Shown here one piece after another: positions 42,787 through 45,322 of a stretch of 64,000 bases of DNA. Numbering within the stretch: the stretch's first letter is position 1; every line of letters starts with the position of its first letter. Origin of the DNA: Pseudomonadota bacterium (GTDB taxonomy: Bacteria; Pseudomonadota; Alphaproteobacteria; Rhizobiales; Phreatobacteraceae); NCBI GenBank assembly GCA_020161695.1, contig JAIUOO010000001.1, forward strand, positions 62,001 to 126,000, given 5' to 3'. The notes under the pieces were generated by a model. The model saw only the letters and a program-made list of their open reading frames with translations. It had not been told where the DNA came from and made no database searches. The position numbers were made by a program, and so were the translations under genes.

Positions 42787-44070
42787 TCAGCGCAGCGCCA
42801 CCGGCTGGGCGGTGTTGGTGGCCGCCTGCGCGCCGATGCCGTCGCGCTGGTAGATATCGTCGCGGAACTGGACGAGGCCGTCCGGATTGGCCCAGGCGGT
42901 GATGTAGACCCAGTAGACCGGCACCGGCTGGATCGGCTTTGCGTCCACGCGGTCCGTGGTGCGGAAGATGCGGTCGATCTCCGAACGCGACCACTGCGTG
43001 CCCTGCAGGATCCAGGCGATCAGCTCGCGGATGTTCTGGATGCGCGCGCAGCCCGAGGAATGGAAGCGCTGGTCCTCGCCGAACAGGCCCTTGGAGGGCG
43101 TGTCGTGCATGTAGACCGCGTGCTGGTTCGGGATGTTGATGCGGACATTGCCCATCGAGTTGCCCTCGAAGGGGTCCTGCCGGAAGCGGAAGTTCATCGC
43201 ATCCATCGAGTTCCAGTTGATGGACTCGGGCGCCACTTCCTGGCCCTGGCCGTTGAACACGCGAATGCGGTTCTTGGCGAGATAGTCCGGCTCCGCCTGC
43301 ATCTTCGGGATCAGATCCTTGCGGATGATCGAGGCCGGGACAGTCCAGAACGGGTTGAAGTTGATGTCCTGCACGCGGGTCGAGATGACCGGCGACTGGC
43401 GGTCGATCTTGCCGACCACGGTCACGTGGCGCGAGACGACGGTGCCGTTCTCGACCGCTTCCAGCTGGGCGGCCGGAATGTTCATGACGATGAAGCGGTT
43501 GCCGAGGAAGCCGGACTGGGCGCGGACGCGGACGAGATTGGTCTCGAGCTGGCGCAGACGCAGTTCGGCCGGGACGTTGAGCGCGGCGTAGGTGGAATCG
43601 CGGACCTGACCGTCCGGCGAGATGCCGTGGCGGGTCTGGAAACGCTTCACGGCCGTATCGACGAACGAATCGAAGATGTCGGAGCGGCCGGCGGAGGCGT
43701 CGAGGTCGCCGGAAGCGACAAGGCGCTCGCGCAGCGCGATCACCGCCGGGCGGCGCGAACCGATGCGCAGGCGCTCGTTGGCTGGCACCGGGCGCCAGCC
43801 CCCGCGGCCGACGATCTGCTGATACTGGGCGATGGCCTGTTCGAGGCCCTGCACCGTGTGCGGCCCGAGCACCGGATAGGGATTGCGGGTCGAGCGGGCG
43901 CGCGAGCCGGCGTCGAAACTGTCGGACCATTCCGCCGTCGCGCCGCCGCGCACGCCCTGCGCGAGCGCCGAGGGGGCGGCAGCCGCGAGGGCCGCCAGCG
44001 AGGTCAGGCCGCCGAGAACGGCGCGCCGGGGCAGCAGGCCCAGGGTCGAGGCAGGCGAACGATCCGTCAC
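42787..44070 (-). CDS. L,D-transpeptidase with peptidoglycan-binding domain (YcbB-like)
   Basis: 427-residue exported enzyme making 3-3 cross-links. An N-terminal Tat-like signal (PRRAVLGGLTSLAALAAAAPSALAQ) is followed by a peptidoglycan-binding domain (about 110-180; LRERLVASGDLD, FDSFVDTAVKRFQTRHGISPDGQV) and a YkuD domain whose catalytic motif is HSSGCARIQN. The layout matches E. coli YcbB/LdtD. The start is taken as GTG at 44070 with GGAG eight bases upstream; the frame is open further up. The MarR-type regulator LdtR is encoded upstream, matching the known ldtR-ldtP pairing in Rhizobiales. Confidence 0.9.
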   Translation of the reverse strand: MTDRSPASTLGLLPRRAVLGGLTSLAALAAAAPSALAQGVRGGATAEWSDSFDAGSRARSTRNPYPVLGPHTVQGLEQAIAQYQQIVGRGGWRPVPANERLRIGSRRPAVIALRERLVASGDLDASAGRSDIFDSFVDTAVKRFQTRHGISPDGQVRDSTYAALNVPAELRLRQLETNLVRVRAQSGFLGNRFIVMNIPAAQLEAVENGTVVSRHVTVVGKIDRQSPVISTRVQDINFNPFWTVPASIIRKDLIPKMQAEPDYLAKNRIRVFNGQGQEVAPESINWNSMDAMNFRFRQDPFEGNSMGNVRINIPNQHAVYMHDTPSKGLFGEDQRFHSSGCARIQNIRELIAWILQGTQWSRSEIDRIFRTTDRVDAKPIQPVPVYWVYITAWANPDGLVQFRDDIYQRDGIGAQAATNTAQPVALR

Positions 44071-44170
44071 GTCACAGGCTCCGGCTGATCGGCGGGACCC
44101 ATGAGGTCGCGGCCGCCCGAGGGGAGGAAACACCAACATCCTTAAGGAATGCCCACCGGCACTGATGGCC

Positions 44171-44199
44171 ACCTATGGCAATCAATGTGACCAACTCAA
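44171..44199 (-). promoter_or_regulatory. candidate promoter of the L,D-transpeptidase gene
   Basis: On the minus strand TTGAGT (44194-44199) and ATAGGT (44171-44176) are spaced by exactly 17 bases, about 100 bases before the GTG start. The terminator at 44277-44305 lies just upstream, so the transpeptidase would need its own promoter. The match is moderate. Confidence 0.4.
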
Positions 44200-44276
44200 G
44201 GCATATGACGCAGGGGAGCCCCGCGAAAGTGCGGTGTTCGGCGGCTTCAGCTGAGCGATGAAGCCTGAAAGACACG

Positions 44277-44305
44277 AAAAAGCCCGGTGCGAAGACGCAC
44301 CGGGC
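44277..44305 (-). terminator. rho-independent terminator downstream of ldtR and the 47-residue ORF
   Basis: GCACCGGGC and GCCCGGTGC (44297-44305/44282-44290) form a nine-bp perfect stem with a six-base loop, followed on the minus strand by TTTTT. It ends the ldtR transcript 37 bases after the stop of the small ORF, which supports that ORF as part of the ldtR transcript. Confidence 0.88.
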
Positions 44306-44341
44306 GCAATCAGGTTCAGGGTGATCGGCGCGACCGGAGGC

Positions 44342-44485
44342 TCAGTCGCCGTCGGCACCCGTATCGTCGGCACCGGCGGCGAACAGGCCGAGACCCGTGA
44401 CGCCGAGCGCGTTTTCCGCGAGGACCAGAAGGAGCGCCGCCGTGGCGATCCAGGCCGGCCAGTTGGCAAGCATCGAGACCGTCAT
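44342..44485 (-). CDS. small membrane protein ORF (47 residues) after ldtR
   Basis: An ORF not usually predicted because of its size. It encodes one hydrophobic helix (about 10-30: AWIATAALLLVLAENAL) followed by a Gly-rich stretch and an acidic tail (DDTGADGD). The start lies nine bases after the ldtR stop and has GAGG six bases upstream; a terminator follows 37 bases after the stop. Position, ribosome binding site and composition all support a real cotranscribed gene. Function unknown; a single-pass partner of the envelope-stress or transpeptidase system is possible. Confidence 0.55.
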   Translation of the reverse strand: MTVSMLANWPAWIATAALLLVLAENALGVTGLGLFAAGADDTGADGD

Positions 44486-44493
44486 GGCAGGCC

Positions 44494-45024
44494 TCAGAGG
44501 CGATAGAGGATCTGGTCGGTCCAGAAGCGCTCGAGCCGCAGCAGCGACTTGTTCAGCGCCTTGAAGTCGTCGTGCGAGATGCCGCCGACCTGCTCCACCG
44601 TGCGGACATGCTTGGCGTAGAGCGCCTTCACGATCTCCGCGATCTCGTGGCCCTGCGGCGTCAGGCTGATGCGGACCGAACGGCGGTCGATGCGCGAGCG
44701 CTGATGGGAGAGATAACCCATCTCGACCAGCTTCTTGAGGTTGTAGGAGACGTTGGAGCCGAGATAGTAGCCCTTGGTCCGAAGTTCGCCGGCGGTCAGT
44801 TCGCGGTCGCCGATGTTGAACAGCAGGAGCGCCTGAACGGCATTGATATCCGAACGGTTGCGCCGGTCGAACTCGTCCTTGATCACATCCAGGAGGCGGC
44901 GGTGAAGCCGCTCGATGAGGGTCAGCGCCTCCATATAGGTGGGGCTGATGGCCTCGAAGCGCTCCTGGCGCTCGGGAGAGATCGGGGGCGACGCGATATC
45001 GCGCTGCTTGCTCATCGTGCTCAT
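44494..45024 (-). CDS. ldtR: MarR/winged-helix regulator LdtR
   Basis: 176-residue DNA-binding regulator. The helix-turn-helix is TAGELRTKGYYLGSNVSYNLKKLVEMGYLSHQRSRIDRRSVRISLTPQGHEI. In Rhizobiales and Liberibacter, LdtR controls an adjacent L,D-transpeptidase gene and osmotic tolerance; here the transpeptidase lies downstream at 42787. Start at 45024, with AAGAGGCG upstream; the frame is open 42 codons further. Two copies of a CGTTGT-containing repeat 22 bp apart lie 160-200 bases upstream and could be its own operator. Confidence 0.9.
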   Translation of the reverse strand: MSTMSKQRDIASPPISPERQERFEAISPTYMEALTLIERLHRRLLDVIKDEFDRRNRSDINAVQALLLFNIGDRELTAGELRTKGYYLGSNVSYNLKKLVEMGYLSHQRSRIDRRSVRISLTPQGHEIAEIVKALYAKHVRTVEQVGGISHDDFKALNKSLLRLERFWTDQILYRL

Positions 45025-45185
45025 GGGACGCCTCTTGTCCTCGTTGCGGGGCGCCGGGGCGTTTTTTGTGCCCTCGGCTGAGCGGCCCTGTTCACCGCTC
45101 TTGTGACCCGAACGTAAGGCCGCGAATTTTAAGAGTGGCCGAACAAACACGATGAAGGCGGCTTAACCACTACTGAGTGAACAAG

Positions 45186-45231
45186 AACTTGCGTTGTTCT
45201 TTCGATAAACTCTCGTTGTCTTTTCATAAAC
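45186..45231. repeat. tandem 21-22 bp repeats upstream of ldtR, candidate operator
   Basis: AACTTGCGTTGTTCTTT (45186-45202) is repeated as AACTCTCGTTGTCTTTT (45208-45224), 22 bp apart, with identical CGTTGT cores at 45192 and 45214. ATAAAC also recurs 21 bp apart (45205 and 45226). The region is A/T-rich in a GC-rich genome. Spacing of two helical turns suggests a dimeric regulator binding one face of the DNA; autoregulation by LdtR is the simplest idea. Confidence 0.5.
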
Positions 45232-45322
45232 CTGACGGAAAAACCGCAAGATTCGATTCAGGATCGGAATCCCGTTGTTTCCTGCACTTGCGCCCCGGCA
45301 TTTACAAAGCGTTTGAAAACGC

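Follow-up and report, generated by a model that had tools for sequence, protein, structure and literature searches.

A conserved small gene behind ldtR in Phreatobacter and its predicted single-pass membrane product

MgrB, AcrZ and CydX are enteric inner-membrane proteins of fewer than 50 residues, each of which crosses the membrane once with its only helix and contacts a larger membrane protein. CydX has a conserved glutamate. For the transcriptional regulator LdtR, the available part of one paper describes binding of the Liberibacter asiaticus protein to two promoter regions, its own and the one of ldtP, as well as short rods and reduced osmotic tolerance in Sinorhizobium meliloti upon mutation of ldtR (PMC3999280). 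The LdtR regulon is wide according to the accessible portion of PMC5481520. Small proteins have been surveyed in S. meliloti by Ribo-seq, and 7 of the 48 novel small proteins were predicted to reside in the cytoplasmic membrane (PMC10117765, in the part available).

Here we analysed a locus within a 64,000-nucleotide stretch of Phreatobacteraceae DNA (order Hyphomicrobiales), the whole of which is referred to as the window. A minus-strand open reading frame at 44485–44342 lies directly behind ldtR, and its translation from the window is the 47-residue product MTVSMLANWPAWIATAALLLVLAENALGVTGLGLFAAGADDTGADGD (Table 1). This product is like MgrB, AcrZ and CydX in size and in having one helix, a likeness drawn from the general description of these proteins only, and it differs from them in that its gene sits behind a MarR-family regulator and not beside a known membrane target. 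With the LdtR-LdtP regulon of Liberibacter and Sinorhizobium the locus shares the regulator family and an L,D-transpeptidase, but the available part of PMC3999280 mentions no small protein gene behind ldtR. The S. meliloti small proteome shows that annotation has missed small proteins in this order; the main text of PMC10117765, in its available part, names neither ldtR nor MarR, and the species lies outside the range in which we found the small gene. In our preferred reading, to which we assign a probability of roughly 0.55, the gene encodes a Phreatobacter-specific small membrane protein that is made from the ldtR mRNA and would probably act as an envelope accessory or feedback subunit.

Table 1. 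Features of the ldtR locus, in window coordinates.
Feature	Position	Strand	Details
ldtR, MarR-family regulator gene	44494..45024	-	scores 282 bits with NCBIfam NF047395 (cut-off 250); ATG start (MSTMSKQ...) common to 12/12 genomes
GAGG, Shine-Dalgarno-like site	44492..44495	-	overlaps the ldtR stop codon; 6 bases upstream of the small-gene ATG
Small membrane protein gene (predicted)	44342..44485	-	47 residues; ATG 44485-44483, TGA 44344-44342; long helix predicted at residues 9-43; LAEN is residues 22-25
Terminator-like hairpin followed by TTTTT	44282..44305	-	stem of 10 pairs (9 G-C), separated by 36 bases from the small-gene stop
ldt, L,D-transpeptidase (YkuD) gene	42787..44070	-	beyond the hairpin, same strand as ldtR; putative start at the GTG of VTDRS

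The stop codon of ldtR occupies 44496–44494 and is followed, after 8 intervening bases, by the ATG of the small gene, the A of which is the ninth base. TGAGG thereby combines the ldtR stop and the GAGG site in one string. These positions agree with the initial annotation, which had placed the start nine bases past the ldtR stop, with GAGG six bases ahead of it. Across the 12 genomes compared below, GAGG occurs within the final 14 bases before the ATG in eight and is absent in four. Since the Shine-Dalgarno site overlaps the ldtR stop in the window, translation of the small gene is probably coupled to that of ldtR. The two genes would form one unit with the small gene in second place. The initial annotation had assigned the small gene to the ldtR transcript; strand and gap bear this out as far as gene order is concerned, and a single mRNA shared by both genes is what the arrangement suggests. 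The statement that the frame is too short for standard gene callers was not quite right, as 47 residues exceed the default minimum of common programs. Prodigal, for example, has a default minimum gene length of 90 nt.

The 12 genomes of the family that we analysed belong to a single genus, which we infer to be Phreatobacter. In all 12, an ATG-started homologue of 41–47 residues was found directly behind ldtR, on the same strand and with 7–18 bases between the ldtR stop and the ATG, and both the ATG start and the TGA stop were conserved throughout. The initial annotation had pointed to a broken or missing frame in syntenic close relatives as the observation that would speak against the gene; we looked for it and found the frame kept in every genome. 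When 397 genomes of the order were searched with a profile built from the twelve members, 12 of 12 were recovered, with E-values between 1.3e-23 and 1.4e-17.

The substitution pattern within the genus is that of a protein-coding frame. We pooled five genome pairs, which together take in 10 of the 12 genomes and omit G010, which is near G007 and G008, and G001, which is without a close partner. The pooled pN/pS of the small gene was 0.38, and none of 2,000 shuffles was as low (shuffled mean 0.97, sd 0.22, lowest 0.49). When the pairs were realigned as DNA, pN/pS was 0.42 in the small-gene frame versus 0.93 and 1.60 in the other two frames, and a control stretch, the 90 bases after the small-gene stop, gave 0.91 to 1.21. 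Differences at the three codon positions numbered 26/15/36 in the small-gene frame versus 30/34/30 in the control stretch, and alignment gaps between paired copies measured 0, 6 or 9 bases in the gene versus 0, 2 or 4 behind it. Eight closer pairs yielded values of 0.06 to 0.43 for the small gene. For the distant pairs G000-G004 and G000-G003 dN/dS was 0.52 and 0.86, which are weaker evidence as synonymous sites are near saturation. The small protein evolves much faster than its neighbour: between G000 and G005 it is 80% identical, LdtR 97%. Judged from these comparisons, the small gene is almost certainly a real protein-coding gene.

The majority sequence of the twelve members reads MTTMLxDWxxLxAGLAMVLxLAENMLGVTGAxLLAxDxxxRRx. 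Five residues are invariant (L22, A23, E24, G31 and L34), whereas the N of LAEN is replaced by T in two genomes. Hydropathy predicts one hydrophobic stretch in the window protein and in each of the 12 members, in line with the membrane helix noted initially; the best 19-residue Kyte-Doolittle mean is 1.81 for the window protein and ranges from 1.81 to 2.32 across the members. AlphaFold2, run on the twelve-row alignment, placed helices at residues 3–7 and 9–43 (mean pLDDT 82.8, pTM 0.48), with a mean pLDDT of 62 for the last block, residues 41–47. On these predictions the product is very probably a single-pass membrane protein, and we would place it in the inner membrane. The invariant glutamate sits within the hydrophobic stretch, where it could serve as a contact for another membrane helix.

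An acidic tail had also been proposed. The tail is indeed acidic in the window protein, but this feature is not conserved: it is acidic in 4, neutral in 1 and basic in 7 of the 12 members. Because the net charge of the tail swings from -4 to +3, the positive-inside rule yields no consistent topology across the 12 members. The window protein itself is devoid of K and R. No residue pattern pointing to peptidoglycan was seen in the small protein.

Database searches revealed no homologue of known function in Pfam, NCBIfam, PHROGs or PDB. None of the twelve members matched NCBIfam or PHROGs at E 0.1, and the profile was without a match among PDB sequences at E 10. In Pfam there were two weak matches, one at E 0.065 that involved a single member and one at E 0.15 that involved two, and none better. 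As an RNA element the region was considered and rejected, as neither strand of 44050–45300 matched any Rfam family at its gathering score; six weak sRNA or snoRNA matches lie below their respective scores (E 0.0062 to 0.5), four of them over the end of the small gene and the hairpin. In the literature on LdtR and on small proteins of Phreatobacter we found no description of the small gene, within a coverage that excludes most subscription journals. The product appears as a new family among the lineage-specific small membrane proteins, an already known kind. It makes a clean case of such a protein, with selection that can be measured and a gene placed next to a cell-wall regulator that has been studied.

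LdtR itself is widespread in the order. We compared the best 80 of at least 579 LdtR loci, namely 3 from Phreatobacter, all with the small gene, and 77 named non-Phreatobacter loci. Run against all reading frames, the small-protein profile found the small gene in the 3 Phreatobacter loci and in the twelve loci of the genus, but gave no match better than E 1.1 at the 77 others. The small protein had been proposed as a partner in the LdtR/L,D-transpeptidase system at large, and this proposal does not agree with its absence from 77 of 77 loci. A look for the peptide at ldtR-ldt loci beyond the genus, as initially suggested, had the same outcome: within the ldtR-flanking DNA examined, an L,D-transpeptidase gene lies on the same strand behind ldtR at 57 of the 77 loci, yet the profile finds the peptide at none. 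Short membrane-like frames do occur behind ldtR at the non-Phreatobacter loci (6 of the 77 have one within 250 bases, and 1 has one within 40), and none of them resembles the small protein by eye. Loci that passed a loose text filter (AE plus one residue) were unrelated by eye and were dropped; the profile search replaces this filter.

Searches of whole genomes gave a corresponding picture. At a limit of E 1, matches appeared in at least 190 of the 397 genomes of the order, at least 178 of these outside the genus. Among the matches listed, only two outside the genus were better than E 0.001 (G153, 8.1e-5; G034, 3.3e-4), and we rejected both as homologues, since they are partial and lie within larger frames of 797 and 289 residues. 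Four weak matches from one other family (f6), again among those listed, have E-values of 0.03 to 0.1 and cover almost all of the profile. Two of the four were inspected (L130 and L135) and set aside: they lie inside larger frames that look by eye like a multi-helix membrane protein, and there is no LdtR match in the surrounding 3 kb. In a sample of 385 genomes of the class, the one match at E 0.001 came from the genome to which the window belongs. With no more than 18 candidates scored in each genome, the order and class searches could have missed a distant homologue. A tblastn search against plasmids gave no match to the small protein. As far as these searches reach, the small gene appears specific to Phreatobacter, and its gain in the ancestor of the genus would be the simplest reading, although losses in other lineages are conceivable. 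Because LdtR occurs in many genera without the small gene, the protein is not needed for LdtR action in general.

Within the genus, the order of genes behind ldtR separates the small gene from ldt. In 9 of the 12 genomes ldt follows ldtR on the same strand, and its aligned part begins 306–398 bases after ldtR. In the remaining three it is farther away, at about 1.0 kb in G006, about 1.2 kb in G001 and about 2.8 kb in G011, with the gene identities confirmed. The small gene is still directly behind ldtR in these three genomes, where the DNA beyond differs.

We would expect the small protein to serve an envelope protein as an accessory or feedback subunit, in amounts that follow LdtR. A functional link with LdtR or with the envelope is an evenly balanced matter in our judgement. 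Should the link to LdtR prove functional, the small gene would open a way to study how L,D-crosslinking in Hyphomicrobiales responds to feedback from the osmotic and envelope state; without such a link it would remain a good illustration of a small gene fixed within a single genus. A bolder form, in which the LdtR of Phreatobacter gained a dedicated single-helix membrane partner that reports the envelope state to LdtR or to the L,D-transpeptidase, is speculative, and we hold it to be doubtful. Were it true, a MarR-family regulator known for its response to soluble small molecules would also be controlled from the membrane.

The strongest alternative is that the product is a real membrane protein with no relation to LdtR or peptidoglycan, a genus-specific gene for which the ldtR transcript is merely a convenient site of expression. 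The finding of the small gene in one genus only, against a wide occurrence of LdtR in the order, fits such a passenger, as do the missing peptidoglycan pattern and the missing family matches. However, a passenger would be expected to move sometimes, and the gene lies directly behind ldtR in 12 of 12 genomes, including the three in which the DNA beyond differs. We regard this explanation as possible but rather unlikely, and retain the reading in which the ldtR mRNA also yields a small accessory or feedback subunit for the envelope.

The hairpin behind the small gene gives rise to another alternative. A strong terminator after the small-gene stop had been noted initially, and we recovered a terminator-like hairpin there, with 36 bases between stop and stem. 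The number of terminator-like sites in 43500–45200 is no more than chance (1 found versus 1.2 expected), but the score of the window hairpin exceeded that of 100 of 100 shuffles of its own stretch. For a hairpin with a T-rich tail behind the small gene, no more than 1 of 100 shuffles scored as high in 8 of the 12 genomes, and 4 of 100 did so in G001; in the other three (G002, G004 and G010) it was not better than shuffled sequence. The frame could be imagined as a leader peptide or attenuator frame that controls the downstream ldt through the position of the ribosome at the terminator, since a strong hairpin with a T run begins 36 bases past its stop and ldt is next on the same strand. Yet the small gene keeps to ldtR and is retained where ldt is 1–2.8 kb away, which makes a leader-peptide role for ldt unlikely. 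Moreover, in the nine genomes with ldt near, ldt has its own conserved upstream blocks past the hairpin, and a hydrophobic core with an invariant glutamate at a pN/pS of 0.38 is not expected of a leader peptide. Taken together, we consider such a role improbable.

Type I toxins are small and have a single hydrophobic helix. The size and helix of the product would fit a hydrophobic toxin of this type restrained by an antisense RNA. Against this, the small gene lies at one and the same place in 12 of 12 genomes, the next match in the window's own genome is at E 0.146, no Rfam family reaches gathering score on either strand and PHROGs is silent at E 0.1, so that we think a toxin very improbable. 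That the frame is open merely by chance, within the 3' untranslated region of ldtR, is hardly credible: G+C-rich DNA does keep frames open, and the +2 frame over the same stretch is open in 9 of the 12 genomes, but the small-gene frame is kept with its ATG and TGA in all 12 and is the only one with the signal of purifying selection, and we rejected this explanation on the shuffles of pN/pS together with the frame and downstream controls. The envelope-protein reading given above remains the one we prefer.

The starts of the two flanking genes and the DNA ahead of them also deserve mention. The longest ldtR frame begins with a GTG at 45150; in 6 of 8 genomes compared there is an in-frame stop no more than about 30 residues before the ATG at 45024, while in G011 the longer frame is open too. 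The longer start is probably wrong. The DNA ahead of ldtR (45037–45284, minus strand) is well conserved in the 12 genomes; GGTTAAGCCGCCTTCA and CTCTTAAAATTCG, given in window letters, are examples of its blocks, which probably represent the ldtR promoter and control sites. For ldt, the longest frame starts at 44172, a position between two conserved upstream blocks and immediately past the first of them. The likely start at the GTG at 44070 gives an N-terminus with an RRAVLGG stretch, which we take to be a twin-arginine-like motif. The two upstream blocks, at 44173–44202 and 44124–44151 on the minus strand, comprise GCCTTGAGTTGGTCACATTG(A/G)TTGCC(A/C)TAG and a block holding CATTCCTTAAGGAT, and both are conserved in 9 of the 12 genomes, those that have ldt near ldtR. 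In the whole genome, CTTGAGTTGGTCACATTG and CATTCCTTAAGGATG each match exactly at a single place, the ldt upstream region. The blocks are candidates for the ldt promoter and for an LdtR site; ATTCCTT is shared with the footprinted L. asiaticus site ATATTCCTTGTATTTTAA given in the available part of PMC3999280.
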